In this document: one piece after another, positions 29,904 to 34,182 of the stretch
Layout of the letters: every line of letters starts with the position of its first letter
Position numbering within the stretch: the first letter of the stretch is position 1
Assembly (NCBI RefSeq): GCF_009882975.1
Contig: NZ_WTUX01000011.1
Span: 62,001-126,000 of the forward strand
From: Maritimibacter harenae
Lineage (GTDB): Bacteria > Pseudomonadota > Alphaproteobacteria > Rhodobacterales > Rhodobacteraceae
Direction: 5' to 3'
DNA: 64,000 nucleotides
Position numbers and translations under genes: made by a program
Notes under the pieces: model-generated
Told to the model about the DNA's origin: nothing
What the model saw: the letters and a program-made list of their open reading frames with translations, nothing else
Database searches by the model: none

Positions 29904-30066
29904 TTCGGGCCTCTCCTCTTGCCTGCATCTCCTCACCTCCATCTTTAGGACCCGGACAGGCCCCGCGACCAGCCTGTTGAGTGCCCAAGGCGCTTGACTT
30001 TCGCGTGACCGCCTTCAACCGTTGCTGTCGCAACAGATCCGATGCCGAAAGAAAGACCGCCCGCCC

Positions 30067-31068
30067 ATGAACGCCCCGCAGCCCGTCGTCGACCTCTCGG
30101 CCAACCTCGCCCGCGTCGGGCGTCTCACGCGCCGGTGGTCCGGGGAGGCACTCGATCCCGAGGGCTGCCTGCGCTTCGTGAAAGGCGACCCGGAGGCGCT
30201 GCCGATCTATTTCTGTTCGGTCGGAGAGCCGATCTTCAACGGGCTGATCGAGGCGCTGGGCGGGCGCTGCGACCTTGTCGGCATGCGGTCGCTGCGGTGG
30301 ATTCTGCCCGACTCCGAGATCAACGGCCCCGTGGCGGAATTCATGGCCGACCACTACGCGCGTCACCTCCATCGGGCCTTCGGCGATCGCCCCTGCATCG
30401 TCGGCGGCAATTGCGCGGCGAGCGGGCTTGCCTACCGGGTGGCGGCGAAACTGGTGGAGCTGGGCGTCCCGGTCGAACGGCTCGTGGCGTTGGAGGCGGA
30501 ATACAGGTTTCCGTTTCCCGGCCACGTGCGCCACATCTACGGAATCGGGGGCGAGAACTACAATCCGTTCGAATGGGCGGACGGGGGCGCGCTCGAAAAT
30601 ATCCTCGCCCGCTGGTCCCATGCCTACGGCAGCGTCGACTGGATCGAGATCGAGGGCGAGCACGGCGAATTCAGCAGGCCGGAGAATGCCCCCGCGCTGG
30701 CCGAAGCGATCCTGCGCCCGGTCGAACCGGGGTCAGCGGCGCTCTCCACGCCGAAGCCGTCGGCGCCCCTCGACCTGCGCTGGAGCATGACCGTCATCCG
30801 GCCCGATCACGTCATCCTTGATGCCTATGGCCCCGCCGACCGGACGGGGCTGGCCATGTTGCCGGTCTGGCGCACCTCCGACGGCCGCCTTGCGCGTGTG
30901 AACGATGACGGCTGGCTTCGCATCGCGCCCCAGACCGGCGCCTGGACCTGCCGTGTCACACGGCCGGACAGGCCCGGGCCGTGGACATTGCACCCGGTCC
31001 TGTGCCGCGCGGGAGAGGGCCCGGTCCAGTGGCCGGTGGCCGAGATACCGGGGTTCGAAGTCGATTGA
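30067..31068 (+). CDS. Thioesterase-like alpha/beta hydrolase with Cys at the nucleophile position
   Basis: The start is the ATG at 30067 (333 residues). Residues about 45-210 resemble the thioesterase domain of peptide and polyketide synthetases: IYFCSVGE at the first strand, then the nucleophile elbow IVGGNCAASG, where C116 replaces the usual Ser, and a C-terminal His in EGEHGEF (H199). Residues about 235-333 form an extra beta-rich domain that I do not recognise. Release of a product from the carrier protein encoded at 33946 is the likely role. It opens the cassette of two peptide genes, HExxH enzyme, adenylation enzyme and carrier protein. Membership of one operon is inferred from orientation and spacing (77 bases to the first peptide gene). 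Confidence 0.7.
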   Translation: MNAPQPVVDLSANLARVGRLTRRWSGEALDPEGCLRFVKGDPEALPIYFCSVGEPIFNGLIEALGGRCDLVGMRSLRWILPDSEINGPVAEFMADHYARHLHRAFGDRPCIVGGNCAASGLAYRVAAKLVELGVPVERLVALEAEYRFPFPGHVRHIYGIGGENYNPFEWADGGALENILARWSHAYGSVDWIEIEGEHGEFSRPENAPALAEAILRPVEPGSAALSTPKPSAPLDLRWSMTVIRPDHVILDAYGPADRTGLAMLPVWRTSDGRLARVNDDGWLRIAPQTGAWTCRVTRPDRPGPWTLHPVLCRAGEGPVQWPVAEIPGFEVD

Positions 31069-31104
31069 CCGAAGTGGTTAATCGCTGCTAGCGTCCTGTT
31101 CATA

Positions 31105-31122
31105 GGTATGTTTTTCCATACC
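31105..31122. promoter_or_regulatory. Inverted repeat in the leader of the first peptide gene
   Basis: GGTATG and CATACC form a perfect 6-base inverted repeat around TTTTTC, 23 bases upstream of the peptide start codon. It lies in the only AT-rich stretch between the hydrolase and the peptide gene. It may be an operator or a short mRNA hairpin; no known binding motif was recognised. Confidence 0.4.
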
Positions 31123-31145
31123 GAAACCAATGAGGGAAAATTTTC

Positions 31146-31304
31146 ATGAAGATCGATACGACCAAGCTTCTGGCTCTGAAAGTCGCCAGCGCGGGTGCCC
31201 CGAAAGTCGGCAATGAACCACCGACCATCAACGGTGAGCCGACCAACATCAACGGCGAGCCTGTCGGCATGCCCAAGGTCGGAGAGCCGGCCGACGGCAA
31301 GTAA
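31146..31304 (+). CDS. Putative RiPP precursor peptide 1 (52 aa) with EP repeats
   Basis: An ATG at 31146, nine bases after GAGGG, opens a 52-residue frame ending in TAA. Residues 1-25 align without gaps to the 28-residue peptide encoded at 31468: both share M1, I3, D4, L8, L9, L11, K12, G17, A18, K20, V21, E24 and P25. Residues 22-52 are repetitive: Glu-Pro occurs at 24-25, 31-32, 38-39 and 47-48, INGEP twice in a heptad register, and PKVG twice (19-22 and 43-46). It has no signal peptide or membrane segment. A conserved leader plus variable repetitive tail beside an HExxH peptide hydroxylase suggests a ribosomal precursor. Inferred, not proven. Confidence 0.72.
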   Translation: MKIDTTKLLALKVASAGAPKVGNEPPTINGEPTNINGEPVGMPKVGEPADGK

Positions 31305-31399
31305 CCGACTGACGAGCTGGGGGGCTTCGGTGTCGGATTGCGTGGCGGTATTCATTCGCGACACCCGCGCCAATCATTTCCCGGATCGACAACAAGACG

Positions 31400-31422
31400 C
31401 CCGGGCCCGCGTTTGGCCCGGG
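31400..31422 (+). other. Perfect GC hairpin between the two peptide genes
   Basis: CCCGGGCC (31400-31407) pairs with GGCCCGGG (31415-31422) around loop CGCGTTT. It lies 95 bases after the stop of peptide 1 and 45 bases before the start of peptide 2. No T-run follows, so it may slow or partly stop polymerase, or protect the 3' end of the first peptide message, giving excess precursor over enzymes. Confidence 0.55.
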
Positions 31423-31467
31423 TGGACCGTCTGAACAAGAATACAAAACACTGAACGGGACAAACGA

Positions 31468-31554
31468 ATGCAGATCGATCTTTCCAGGCTTCTGAGCCTC
31501 AAGACACCGGCATCCGGGGCCGCCAAGGTCAGCGTCGAACCGATCGGCGCTTAA
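31468..31554 (+). CDS. Putative RiPP precursor peptide 2 (28 aa)
   Basis: An ATG at 31468, preceded by ACGGGA, opens a 28-residue frame beginning MQIDLSRLLSLK and ending KVSVEPIGA. Thirteen of its 28 positions are identical to the 52-residue peptide upstream, with no gaps, including the K20-V21 and E24-P25 pairs. The tail after the shared part is only three residues. It ends 21 bases before the HExxH protein gene. Such a short gene would be dismissed alone; the paralogy with its neighbour and the location make it credible. It could be a second precursor with a minimal core or a remnant of duplication. Confidence 0.66.
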   Translation: MQIDLSRLLSLKTPASGAAKVSVEPIGA

Positions 31555-31575
31555 ACGAGAATTCGGAATTAAGAC

Positions 31576-32553
31576 ATGTTGATGCCCGATCCGCGGCAAG
31601 CGGCATCGATGGTCGATGACGTCGATGCCAGGCTTGTGGCCGCGCTCTCCTATCTCGTGTCCGACGTGCTCGGACACCCCGAGGAAACCCGCACCCTGTC
31701 GACCGCGCCCGCGGCCCATGCGCTACAGGCGCTTATGCGCGAGGCGGCGGTCGAAAACGACATCGACGCGATCCGCGCGCTTCATGCCGAACATGGCCGG
31801 GTGCTTGCCCGTCCGGCGCCGTCCGAACGTTGCGCGCTCGTCACCTGGGGCGACGGCACCTTCGACGCCTCCGAGGCGTACCTGCTGCAATCGGCCTTCC
31901 GGGACGACATCGGCCTGACCGGGGCGCTGGCCGCGCCGGACCCCGACACGCAAGCCCGCCTGCGCGCCGCCTTCGGCCGGATCCGTCCCGCGCTCGCCAC
32001 CCAACTGCCGGCGTGGTGGGGAGAGATCGAGGCGCTCGTGTCCACCATCATCCTCGCCAGTTCGGGGACCGACTCCGCCCGGTTCGGGGGCGCGACCGCC
32101 TTCGCTGCCTGGGGCGCCGTGTTGATCAATCCCGAGGGGCAGGCCGAGCCGCTGCCCCTGGCGCTCGCGCTCGTGCATGAATGTTCGCACCAGAAGCTGT
32201 TCTATGCGCATCTCGACGACGAGGTCGTCCTGAACGACCCCGAGGAGCGTTTCTCGAGCCCGCTTCGGCGCGATGCCCGCCCGATGGACGGGATCTACCA
32301 CGCGACCTTCGTGCTCGCCCGGATGGTGCAGTTCCTGCACGACCTGTCCCGGTCGCCCGATGCGCACGCCGCTTTCGGTCCCGGGGTCGAGGACGAGATC
32401 GACCGACACCTTCGCAGTTCGATCGCCGCCTTCGAAGGCGGGCAGGGTGAAATCGCCGCACATGCCCGGCTCACCCCGAAAGGGCAGGAGATCATCGACG
32501 AGGCCGCCGCGGCCGTCGCCGCCTGCAAGGCCGGCTTGGAGCAACAGGCATGA
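31576..32553 (+). CDS. HExxH-motif protein, putative peptide beta-hydroxylase of the alpha-ketoglutarate HExxH type
   Basis: The 325-residue protein has the motif H201-E202-C-S-H205 within ALALVHECSHQKLFYAH, followed by a conserved-looking DDE and by SSPLRRDARPMDGIYHATFVLARM. This layout matches the HEXXH motif domain family found beside RiPP precursors, members of which are described as non-heme iron, alpha-ketoglutarate-dependent peptide beta-hydroxylases rather than proteases. There is no signal peptide. It follows the two peptide genes and overlaps the adenylation gene by four bases, so modification of those peptides is the natural inference. A metalloprotease role cannot be excluded from sequence alone. 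Confidence 0.75.
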   Translation: MLMPDPRQAASMVDDVDARLVAALSYLVSDVLGHPEETRTLSTAPAAHALQALMREAAVENDIDAIRALHAEHGRVLARPAPSERCALVTWGDGTFDASEAYLLQSAFRDDIGLTGALAAPDPDTQARLRAAFGRIRPALATQLPAWWGEIEALVSTIILASSGTDSARFGGATAFAAWGAVLINPEGQAEPLPLALALVHECSHQKLFYAHLDDEVVLNDPEERFSSPLRRDARPMDGIYHATFVLARMVQFLHDLSRSPDAHAAFGPGVEDEIDRHLRSSIAAFEGGQGEIAAHARLTPKGQEIIDEAAAAVAACKAGLEQQA

Positions 32554-33953
32554 CCGAAACAGCCGCTTCGCGGATCTTCCGCAACCTCCGGGACAACCGC
32601 GACACCGTGGTAGAGTACCGGGGCCACGGTTATTCCGGGCCCGAGCTCCTGGGGCGGATCAAGGCGCGGGCACGCGTTCTGGCCGAGACCGGGGTGGGAC
32701 CGGGCGACACGATCATCATCATCGCCTCCGAGAACCTCACGGCGTTCGAAATCCTCCTTGCGGCATGGACGCACGGGGCCTCGGGGTTCTTCGTCGATTT
32801 CCGCACGCCCGCCGCGCGGGTGAACGAATGGGCCACGCGGCTTTCCGCCCGCGCCATCGTCGGGACGCGGGCGCTGGCGGGTGTGGAGATGCGGGTCCAG
32901 CCGATGCACCCGGTCCCGGAACCCGGCCCGGTGCCGTGCGATCCGGACCCGATGCACAACGCCGTCTGGTTCTCGACCTCCGGCACCACGGGCCTTCCGA
33001 AAATCGCCCCGCGCACGCAGGTGCGGCTTCATGAAATCATCGAGGCCATGGAAGAGAAGTACAATATTCCCGCCGGGCGCGCCGTGCTCAGCCCGACCTC
33101 GGTCGGGTATTCGGCCAGTGGGTTCATGTGGCTTCGCTTCCTCGCGATGGGGCGCAAGATCATCGCGCTCGACATCGTCCACCGGCTCGACGAACTCGAC
33201 GCGGCGTTGAAGCGCCCGGAAGTGGCCGAGTGCAGCCTGCCGCCCTCGACCATCCGCCGCCTGGCCGCGCTGCCCGGGCCGACGCCGCGCTACCCGGAAC
33301 TCGAACGCCTGGGCGCCGTGGGCGGTCCCGCGCTTGCCGAGGACAAGGTCGCAGCGGTCCGGCGGCTGACCATGAACTACAGGATGGTCTACAGCGCGGC
33401 GGGCCTTGGCACGATCAGCATGATCACGGGCCCCGAGATCCTGGAGCGCCCGGAAAGCTGCGGGAAACCGGAAGAAGGCGTGCAGGTCACCATTCGTGAC
33501 AACGGCCGTGAAGTCGGGCCGGGCGAGATCGGCGAAATCTGCGTGACCCTCCCGGAGCGGGAGGAGGCGCCCACGGGCGATGTCGGCTATCTCGCGCCGG
33601 ACGGCTACCTCTACATCGTCGGCCGGGTCCAGGGCTTCCTGACGCGCAATGGCGTGAACTTCGCCGCCCAGCGGGTGTCCGACGCCGCACTGCGCCTGCC
33701 GGAGGTCGAGGAAGCGGCGGTCGTCGCTGTGCCGGGCCAGGATGCGGGGGACGAGGTCCACCTCTTCGTGCAGGCGCGCGGGCTGGAGCGGGATGCTCTG
33801 CTGCGCCATCTGCGCACGGCCTTGCCCGCCGCCGAGCAACCCGACCACGTCCACCTGCGCCCCGCGCTGCCCTGCAACGTGTCCGGGAAAGTGGACCTGG
33901 GCGCATTGCTGGCCGAACTGACGGAACCGGAAAAAGAGGTCGCACGTGCCTGA
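32550..33953 (+). CDS. Stand-alone adenylation enzyme (ANL superfamily)
   Basis: The 467-residue protein has the main ANL motifs: FSTSGTTGLPK (141-151) for the phosphate loop, VYSAAGLGT, the ribose-binding Asp in TGDVGYL, the hinge GRVQGFLTRNG and the catalytic lysine K447 in CNVSGKVDLG. It should activate a carboxylic or amino acid with ATP and load it on the carrier protein encoded directly downstream (8-base overlap). The substrate pocket does not let me name the acid. At 467 residues it is shorter than most adenylation domains but has both N- and C-terminal subdomains. It overlaps the HExxH gene by four bases. Confidence 0.82.
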   Translation: MTETAASRIFRNLRDNRDTVVEYRGHGYSGPELLGRIKARARVLAETGVGPGDTIIIIASENLTAFEILLAAWTHGASGFFVDFRTPAARVNEWATRLSARAIVGTRALAGVEMRVQPMHPVPEPGPVPCDPDPMHNAVWFSTSGTTGLPKIAPRTQVRLHEIIEAMEEKYNIPAGRAVLSPTSVGYSASGFMWLRFLAMGRKIIALDIVHRLDELDAALKRPEVAECSLPPSTIRRLAALPGPTPRYPELERLGAVGGPALAEDKVAAVRRLTMNYRMVYSAAGLGTISMITGPEILERPESCGKPEEGVQVTIRDNGREVGPGEIGEICVTLPEREEAPTGDVGYLAPDGYLYIVGRVQGFLTRNGVNFAAQRVSDAALRLPEVEEAAVVAVPGQDAGDEVHLFVQARGLERDALLRHLRTALPAAEQPDHVHLRPALPCNVSGKVDLGALLAELTEPEKEVARA

Positions 33954-34182
33954 TCCCACCTTCGAAGAGCGCGTGCGCGCGGCCTTTGCCGAGGCGCTGG
34001 GCACCGTCCCCGGCGATGACGAGGATTTCTTCGACGCAGGCGGTGACTCGCTGGCAGCCGAAAACGTGCTCCTGACGCTTTCGGCGCAGCTGTCGACGGA
34101 GCTTCCCGGCTGGGTGCTGCTGGACCATCCGACGGTGCGCGGGCTTGCCGCCGCGCTTCGGAGCGGTGAGGCGCGGATCTGA
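33946..34182 (+). CDS. Acyl/peptidyl carrier protein
   Basis: The 78-residue protein starts at a GTG behind AGAGG and is a four-helix carrier protein. S35 in AGGDSLAAE is the phosphopantetheine attachment site, and DHPTVRGLAAAL forms the last helix, a pattern typical of peptidyl carrier domains. It overlaps the adenylation gene by eight bases and is the last gene of the cassette. It would hold the activated acid as a thioester for transfer to a peptide or release by the thioesterase-like protein. No phosphopantetheinyl transferase or condensation domain is encoded nearby. Confidence 0.86.
   Translation: MPDPTFEERVRAAFAEALGTVPGDDEDFFDAGGDSLAAENVLLTLSAQLSTELPGWVLLDHPTVRGLAAALRSGEARI

Follow-up and report, generated by a model that had tools for sequence, protein, structure and literature searches.

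A conserved six-gene cassette of Maritimibacter harenae with two candidate precursor peptides, an HExxH protein and separate adenylating, carrier and thioesterase-like proteins

Introduction

Members of the alpha-ketoglutarate (aKG) HExxH enzyme family oxidise the side chains of peptides or cut the peptide backbone, and for two of them, PflC and PosC, both hydroxylation and oxidative cleavage are described (PMC12636437). Together with ChlH and BpmH they belong to the family TIGR04267, lie in gene clusters for ribosomally synthesised and post-translationally modified peptides (RiPPs), and carry the HExxH motif plus a P-x-R...RP block; their partners are radical S-adenosylmethionine (SAM) enzymes or multinuclear non-haem iron oxidative enzymes (MNIO), and their precursors are different from those reported here (PMC12636437, PMC12257519). 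Here we describe six genes of Maritimibacter harenae (Rhodobacteraceae), located in a stretch of 64,000 nucleotides (the window; contig NZ_WTUX01000011.1, positions 62,001 to 126,000), where a gene for such an HExxH protein follows two genes for short peptides and is accompanied by genes for a stand-alone adenylating enzyme of the ANL type, a peptidyl carrier protein (PCP) and a thioesterase (TE)-like hydrolase (Table 1). Neither an ATP-grasp or adenylation (A)-PCP-TE partner nor a precursor with KLLGF and K-x-G motifs is named for the known aKG-HExxH systems in the available text of the two papers (PMC12636437, PMC12257519). We consider it on balance probable that the cassette makes a ribosomal peptide which is oxidised by the HExxH protein and acylated by ANL, PCP and TE in place of an ATP-grasp ligase.

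Graspetides and other ATP-grasp RiPPs, for example corallotide, combine carboxylate activation with an oxygenase acting on repeated Lys motifs, giving Lys isopeptides and hydroxylation (PMC13097080). The oxygenase of corallotide is 2-oxoglutarate (2OG)-associated (PMC13097080), whereas that of the window is of the HExxH kind. Sister HExxH loci resemble graspetide systems by their ATP-grasp ligases; none of the six window genes encodes an ATP-grasp protein, which sets the cassette apart from the graspetides. An NRPS (non-ribosomal peptide synthetase) would have A, PCP and condensation domains, and here an A-type enzyme and a PCP are present and no condensation domain was found among the six genes.

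In the lipolanthines and goadvionin, a carrier-bound acyl group is joined to a ribosomal peptide by way of polyketide synthases and a GNAT-type transferase, in place of which the cassette combines an ANL enzyme and a PCP with a TE fold of the Cys type. SyrC and CmaE use a Cys nucleophile. In NRPS pathways LgnA is an acyl-transferring protein of TE fold and CmaE an acyl-transferase-like domain, and CmaE, SyrC and LgnA are, like the TE-like protein of the window, stand-alone TE-fold proteins beside A and PCP, although LgnA has a Ser as nucleophile and the window protein a Cys (PMC8748450). The window shares with CmaE and SyrC a TE fold with a Cys nucleophile beside A and PCP, a likeness by description and not by comparison with CmaE or SyrC sequences, but the acceptor would be a ribosomal peptide and not another carrier protein.

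No described pathway of this kind was found in the open-access literature that was searched; subscription papers, and preprint servers as such, were outside the scope of the search. The combination of HExxH, RiPP, adenylation, carrier protein and thioesterase occurs in no paper there, and searches for HExxH with ATP-grasp, or for the leader strings LLGFK, LLGFR and KLLGF, returned only unrelated papers, as judged by titles and the starts of abstracts. We regard the cassette as a RiPP system with an HExxH oxygenase of a known kind, in a family for which that literature gave no description, which stops short of proving novelty. If our reading is correct, no more than six genes suffice to bring ribosomal and non-ribosomal logic together, with a stand-alone A-PCP-TE trio as peptide ligase, and acids picked by a carrier system could be added to ribosomal peptides in a simple way.

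Conservation of the cassette

The initial annotation described six genes on one strand from 30067 to 34182, with overlaps of 4 and 8 bases, and took them for a single system. All the open reading frames (ORFs) are present on the + strand as described, and the overlaps are exact, 4 bases between the HExxH and ANL genes and 8 bases between the ANL and PCP genes.

We searched 394 genomes of the family with the HExxH protein, a profile of the peptides, the ANL enzyme and the TE-like protein. A contig scan gave 102 relatives, and the best 80, chosen by likeness to the window protein and thus a part of TIGR04267 and not the whole family, were used as loci for comparison. HExxH matches were present in 19 of the 394 genomes. 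HExxH, ANL, PCP and TE occur together in 18 distinct cassettes, the window and 17 others (L022, L023 and 15 of the 80 loci, here called the separate set; L040, L046 and L052 are from the genomes of L024, L025 and L026). The recurrence of all four enzyme genes side by side in 17 further cassettes shows that the grouping is not due to chance.

The order TE, peptide(s), HExxH, ANL, PCP is found in five cassettes (window, L022, L023, L039 and L040, the last from Gemmobacter aestuarii CC-PW-75, a cultured environmental isolate), and the genes of L022, L023 and L024, from three other genera, are arranged as in the window. In 11 further cassettes the TE gene comes after HExxH-ANL-PCP and is read from the opposite strand; peptide genes, if any were found, are located past TE, and in L050 and L051 the PCP gene is also on the opposite strand.

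At E 0.01 or better the peptide profile matched six of the 394 genomes; its rows came from five of these, and the sixth, G065, gave none and was matched nonetheless. The same six genomes have the six best HExxH scores (four at 276-707 bits), ANL scores of 654-746 bits (next best 246) and TE-like scores of 282-524 bits (next best 163). An A-PCP pair found only in unrelated pathways would have spoken against a single system, but the ANL family proper, with scores from 654 bits upward, is confined to these six peptide-bearing genomes among the 394. The window congener G229 gave no HExxH, peptide or TE-like match and a weak ANL match of 144.5 bits. Over the 18 cassettes the sequence distances of HExxH, ANL, TE and PCP correlate, with r between 0.85 and 0.94 and a permutation maximum of 0.38, to which shared descent contributes. 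A comparison of the flanking genes (20-46 kb of the window against 18 related loci) gave scattered matches, mainly to sugar transport, and none common to all.

The six genes are one conserved system. The four enzyme genes stand together in 18 cassettes, a peptide is present in 17/18, and the check set beforehand, whether HExxH homologues occur with leader-type peptides, came out at 17/18 cassettes and 63/80 HExxH loci, so that the single-system view of the initial annotation holds.

Table 1. Genes of the cassette, with positions in the window.
Feature	Position	Strand	Length	Remarks
TE-like alpha/beta hydrolase	30067-31068	+	333 aa	TTG at 30022 is a possible upstream start
Candidate precursor peptide 1	31146-31304	+	52 aa	Leader-like part MKIDTTKLLALK; K-V-G motif twice; GEP repeated
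Candidate precursor peptide 2	31468-31554	+	28 aa	Leader-like part MQIDLSRLLSLK; tail AAKVSVEPIGA
aKG-HExxH-type peptide beta-hydroxylase (predicted)	31576-32553	+	325 aa	TIGR04267
Stand-alone ANL adenylating enzyme	32550-33953	+	467 aa	PF00501, PF13193
Carrier protein (PCP)	33946-34182	+	78 aa	GTG start; PF00550; phosphopantetheine site GGDSL

The HExxH enzyme

With 89.9 bits against a cut-off of 40 for the curated model TIGR04267, the HExxH protein is, judged by its sequence, a clear member of the peptide-hydroxylase family, in agreement with the initial annotation, which noted that some HExxH proteins of this type are aKG-dependent peptide beta-hydroxylases. The motif residues are H201, E202 and H205, followed by the block PLRxxxRPxxGxxHA, and motif and block as in ChlH were found in 83/83 sequences (window, L022, L023 and the 80 loci). 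The HExxH profile matches 22nu and ChlH 8s5f.

Three weak matches to the HExxH protein were located on plasmids, two of Xenorhabdus and one of Pantoea. In L126 and L127 (Xenorhabdus and Pantoea plasmids) the HExxH gene adjoins a major facilitator superfamily (MFS) transporter gene, and in Xenorhabdus also a carboxymuconolactone-decarboxylase family gene. The two plasmid neighbourhoods that were opened (H1 and H3) hold no annotated ligase, and unannotated peptides were not sought in them. The plasmid genes have a different HExxH context, and we rejected them as relatives of the cassette.

Candidate precursor peptides

The two window peptides are identical at 13 of their first 26 residues, and one profile matches both of them, peptide 1 with 73.7 bits and peptide 2 with 61.6 bits (both are among its six seeds), which bears out the paralogy proposed earlier. 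By sequence they look like RiPP precursors, as first suggested: a peptide gene stands beside the modifying enzyme across genomes, in 17/18 cassettes, and the peptides have a leader-like constant part and a distinct core, as assigned by conservation in alignment A8 and with the leader profile. In 16 cassettes the peptides were found by profile or regular expression (regex), and in L046 (= L025) by a genome search and reading of the frames; in the eighteenth cassette, L049, the contig stops within the TE gene.

The first two thirds of the aligned peptides are conserved, and the C-terminus varies in length and sequence. The motif [APS]K[VIA][GS], with an invariant Lys, is present in 22/22 peptides (the 21 of alignment A8 and the L025 peptide), with Ser for the Gly of K-x-G in window peptide 2, one L041 peptide and the L025 peptide. 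In 18/22, EP follows a few residues downstream of the motif. Several cassettes have more than one peptide, two in the window, L023, L041 and L050 and three in L039. With a limit of E 1, neither Pfam nor NCBIfam gave a match to the window peptides, and seven sister peptides gave two weak FliH matches in NCBIfam, the best at E 0.0039 and far below the cut-off.

One peptide of L044 (9337-9549) has the leader-plus-core unit twice (KLLKLQGSASARAPKVG ... KLLSLKGSAQASTAKVG), which suggests that leader and core as a whole are what the enzymes recognise. It was also possible to locate an additional 2OG-Fe(II) oxygenase gene near the cassette in L041 (13979-14635, PF13640), L044 (9620-10315), L045 (4026-4706), L048 (13592-14416), L078 and L087, all but the L041 gene being assigned by sequence clustering; the Pro-rich tails may be its target. 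RNA folding of the spacers 3' of four peptide genes gave an ordinary stability (z -0.51, -1.16, -0.65 and +1.61), and the window spacer after peptide 1 has a G+C-rich hairpin in its centroid. A special RNA element after the peptide genes was dropped as a candidate because the z scores are unremarkable.

Exchange of the ligase in related loci

The 80 loci are mostly from Pseudomonadota, with two from cyanobacteria, one from an acidobacterium and two from Verrucomicrobiota. Short ORFs with a related leader, LDxxKLLGFK, are found in them, mostly just upstream of HExxH. The 82 loci scanned with a leader regex blind to location have 18,205 short ORFs, of which 64 matched, as compared to 12 in one shuffle; 60 of the 64 are at most 4 kb from HExxH, 45/82 loci are represented, and some matches (for instance L078, L095 and L107, on the opposite strand) look like chance. 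The regex is a fairer test than the comparison of the leader profile inside and outside these regions (72 and 1 matches), which is partly circular since the profile seeds were taken near HExxH.

The loci were classed by their carboxylate-activating ligase with thresholds of our own, E <1e-5 within 3.5 kb of HExxH for ATP-grasp, and E <1e-3 for ANL, PCP and TE, which could lie up to 3.5 kb away on the upstream side or 4.5 kb on the downstream side. Exactly one class is present in 74/80 loci: ATP-grasp type 1 in 40, ATP-grasp type 2 in 13, separate ANL, PCP and TE in 15 and a fused A-PCP-TE protein in 6. Two of the six unclassed loci have a ligase further away: in L061 a type 1 enzyme is located 6.5 kb from HExxH, and in L054 the distance to an ANL and TE protein is 8 kb. 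There are 60 ATP-grasp matches at most 3.5 kb from HExxH, as compared to 1 beyond, and an ATP-grasp of either type within 3.5 kb was found in 0/15 of the separate-set loci. L072 is classed as ATP-grasp type 1 despite a weak TE match nearby.

Single sequences of ATP-grasp type 1 are missed by Pfam (best E 0.032, 5 of 13 members). The type 1 profile matches D-Ala-D-Ala ligase (E 4.7e-4), and a structure model (pLDDT 87.8) folds like ArgX, RimK, LysX and Ddl, with a Foldseek E of 2.4e-10 and TM-scores of about 0.5. For type 2 there is a likeness to cyanophycin synthetase, observed in L063 with a score that falls far short of the model cut-off. Five of the six fused proteins were scanned, and they have AMP-binding and PP-binding domains in 5/5 and the Pfam Thioesterase in 4/5, three above the cut-off; for L103 the TE part, and for L064 every part, was assigned with profiles that we built.

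Peptides were found with the leader profile in 34/40 ATP-grasp type 1, 9/13 ATP-grasp type 2, 10/15 separate-set (leaving out one false match, a 20-aa ORF of L052), 2/6 fused and 4/6 unclassed loci. With the peptides of L043, L046, L047 and L052, which came from other searches, the numbers rise to 14/15 for the separate set and 63/80 for all loci. HExxH and ATP-grasp occur together in 53/80 loci (for instance L066, L075, L080, L083, L091, L097 and L112, the last from Vannielia litorea), and in 43 of the 53 the profile gives a leader-type peptide. These widespread loci are apparently a RiPP family of their own. The loci with ATP-grasp, HExxH and peptide include the cyanobacterial L063 and L077 and L080 and L097 of Verrucomicrobiota; the acidobacterial L073 has a ligase and no peptide by profile.

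K-x-G is present in 68/71 cores, and in many of them it is repeated every four residues. For ATP-grasp type 1, 43 cores contain 138 K-x-G, as compared to a shuffled mean of 37.4 and maximum of 53, and Lys recurs at +4 in 50%. From the first K-x-G on (cores without one taken whole), Asp and Glu are fewer than Lys in 49/52 peptides of the ATP-grasp classes and absent from 18/52. Cores so poor in Asp and Glu are easier to explain by an external acid than by an internal ring of the graspetide type, which is less likely in the sister cores.

In the HExxH tree the separate ANL, PCP and TE set forms one clade (18/18, support 100/100). The fused set needs 2 changes, because the unclassed L090, on a short contig, falls within this set, type 1 needs 8 and type 2 needs 5; with the six unclassed rows removed, the tree calls for 6 changes among the four ligase kinds, as compared to a minimum of 3. 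The ligase has therefore been replaced repeatedly, with HExxH retained throughout and a peptide in most loci. A ligase that changes beside a retained HExxH, and mostly a retained peptide, is likely to have that peptide as its substrate, and this is our main argument for ANL, PCP and TE acting on the peptide.

The ANL enzyme, the carrier protein and the thioesterase-like protein

The initial annotation of an ANL enzyme that stands alone, and of a GGDSL carrier protein, is borne out by Pfam scores above the cut-offs, the ANL enzyme with 93.0 for PF00501 (cut-off 29.9) and 37.1 for PF13193 (cut-off 24.5), and the PCP, which contains FFDAGGDSL, with 50.3 for PF00550 (cut-off 20.8). In A domains for amino acids, the alpha-amino group is bound by the Asp of motif A4. 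In the six aligned ANL proteins this position is Ser in five, the window enzyme included, and Gly in one, and because the Asp is replaced, the activated acid probably has no alpha-amino group. The A10 Lys is present as Lys447 in the window enzyme. The 2-oxoglutaryl-ACP ligase AmcH was considered as an identity for the ANL enzyme, and AmcH-like activation of 2-oxoglutarate was rejected, NF058661 giving 88.4 bits against a cut-off of 370.

The TE-like protein is below the Pfam cut-off (PF00975, 19.7 as compared to 26.4). Its AlphaFold2 model (mean pLDDT 83.9) matches NRPS and polyketide synthase (PKS) thioesterase domains in Foldseek, the best being the TE of Pks13 (E 4e-7; TM-score 0.41 for the query, 0.49 for the target) and others AB3403 and NocB, with single-domain TM-scores of about 0.4-0.5. 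Cys116, in GGNC, and His199 are invariant in 14/14 aligned TE-like proteins. The predicted TE fold and the conserved Cys agree with the early description as a hydrolase with a Cys nucleophile. A beta-rich C-terminal extension, residues about 238-333, is found in near relatives and in L050 and L051 and is absent from the other aligned cassettes. We propose that the TE-like protein is an acyl transferase or a release enzyme. Similar domains lie in open frames of about 820-1330 aa in L119, L120, L121, L123 and L124 (genomes G113, G046, G133, G364 and G152), which by sequence may represent other uses of the TE-like family.

Proposed pathway and alternatives

From the observed gene content, conservation, co-occurrence and ligase exchange, all read from sequence, we infer every chemical step and the order of the steps. 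Both peptides would be precursors, with the N-terminal [IL]Dxx[KR]LLxLK as recognition leader and the stretch past it, centred on the invariant Lys of [AP]K[VI][GS], as core. The HExxH enzyme would bind the leader and oxidise the core, the probable reaction being a beta-hydroxylation close to K-V-G. An external carboxylic acid (aryl, hydroxy, keto or fatty, probably with no alpha-amino group) would be adenylated by the ANL enzyme and loaded onto the PCP, from which the Cys-type TE-like protein may take the acyl group and hand it to the peptide, at the Lys epsilon-amine, at the new hydroxyl or at an end. ANL, PCP and TE would in this way do the job of the ATP-grasp ligase in the sister pathways, and leader removal and export would be left to enzymes encoded elsewhere in the genome. 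The initial annotation had the peptide hydroxylated and then joined to an acid; the presence of an ATP-grasp ligase in the same place in other HExxH-peptide loci lends support to this, and the chemistry is plausible and unproven.

To the wider claim we give an even chance, namely that there is a RiPP family where an LDxxKLLGFK-type leader directs an HExxH oxygenase and a carboxylate ligase to K-x-G, the role of the ligase being filled by two kinds of ATP-grasp and, on two branches of the HExxH tree, by A, PCP and TE of the NRPS type. This would imply that carrier-protein and ATP-grasp chemistry are exchangeable on one kind of ribosomal substrate. It would also tie the broad set of HExxH loci, 80 of which were examined, into one peptide family that can be recognised by its leader, and the exchange of ligases makes the step order and the acceptor directly testable.

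Several observations weigh against this pathway. A5 Glu is Gly in 6/6 aligned ANL proteins, so the activity of the enzyme could be altered or lost; 5/6 of the fused A-PCP-TE proteins keep an A5-like YGxTE (by regex), unlike the window ANL. The TE-like protein may only hydrolyse, and the genomes in which related TE domains form part of larger open frames have no HExxH match. Among the genes common to the cassettes there is no protease, exporter or phosphopantetheinyl transferase (PPTase), and one gene of the PPTase family was found elsewhere in the window genome. The HExxH margin is narrow for two of the six genomes, G065 (130 bits) and G249 (126 bits), the next being 111. The leader profile found no peptide in 6/40 ATP-grasp type 1, 4/13 type 2 and 4/6 fused loci, and L082, of ATP-grasp type 2, has a lone ANL gene on the other strand 1.6 kb from HExxH. 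The Lys as acceptor is suggested by conservation alone.

In pearlin-type pathways a small molecule is built on a peptide carrier, and the peptide of the cassette could be a scaffold of this kind, where the acid is joined to the peptide end, oxidised and released, the TE-like protein cutting or transferring. This would explain why the peptides are so short and their first two thirds conserved, and why a protease and an exporter are not among the common genes, but the variable C-terminus is unlikely as a fixed attachment point and the long multi-unit K-x-G repeats of the sister cores fit many decorated sites on the peptide, so we regard it as unlikely.

Other hydroxylases act on carrier-bound substrates. 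An HExxH protein that oxidises an acyl group held by the PCP, with peptides that only regulate or stabilise the enzymes, would agree with the overlap of 4 bases between the HExxH and ANL genes and with the correlation of their distances (r = 0.94). We nevertheless think it improbable, since the peptide is the more constant partner of HExxH: a PCP match (E <1e-3) is found in none of the 53/80 loci where HExxH occurs with ATP-grasp, and 43/53 have the leader-type peptide.

Oxidative cutting of the backbone has a precedent in PflC and PosC, which hydroxylate and cleave (PMC12636437), and the K-x-G of nearly all cores, 68/71, would provide a place for it, leaving an amide end at K-x-G and a fragment to be capped by the ANL set. 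An ARMD-type motif is absent, however, the Gly is Ser in three peptides, and cuts at each repeat would give very short pieces, and we have as little belief in this as in oxidation on the PCP. The weakest explanation, two independent systems that happen to be neighbours, an HExxH RiPP and an A-PCP-TE small-molecule pathway, could appeal to the similar TE-like domains in larger frames of genomes without an HExxH match, but is highly improbable since the 18 loci with separate genes are one HExxH clade and all retain ANL, PCP and TE, the ANL family proper is found only in cassette genomes (among 394), and ATP-grasp occupies the same place elsewhere.

Neighbouring genes and further loci

By Pfam, the neighbours of the cassette in the window encode a 3-hydroxyisobutyrate dehydrogenase-like protein, ThuA, GH43 and a tripartite ATP-independent periplasmic (TRAP) solute-binding protein, as well as a glutathione S-transferase (GST), a protein resembling PaaX and a fusion of aldehyde dehydrogenase with MaoC; these genes look unrelated to the cassette. 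A cluster of ORFs (alignment A7) that first appeared to be a common neighbour was dropped, since it is most likely an out-of-frame reading. In L026 (G249:C6) and L052 the cassette adjoins sugar-nucleotide and glycosyltransferase-like genes, named from the starts of their translations only. Histidinibacterium lentulum has three HExxH loci (L046, L074 and L110), and in L110 (8305-9539) six tandem precursor-like ORFs with differing cores were observed at one HExxH gene.

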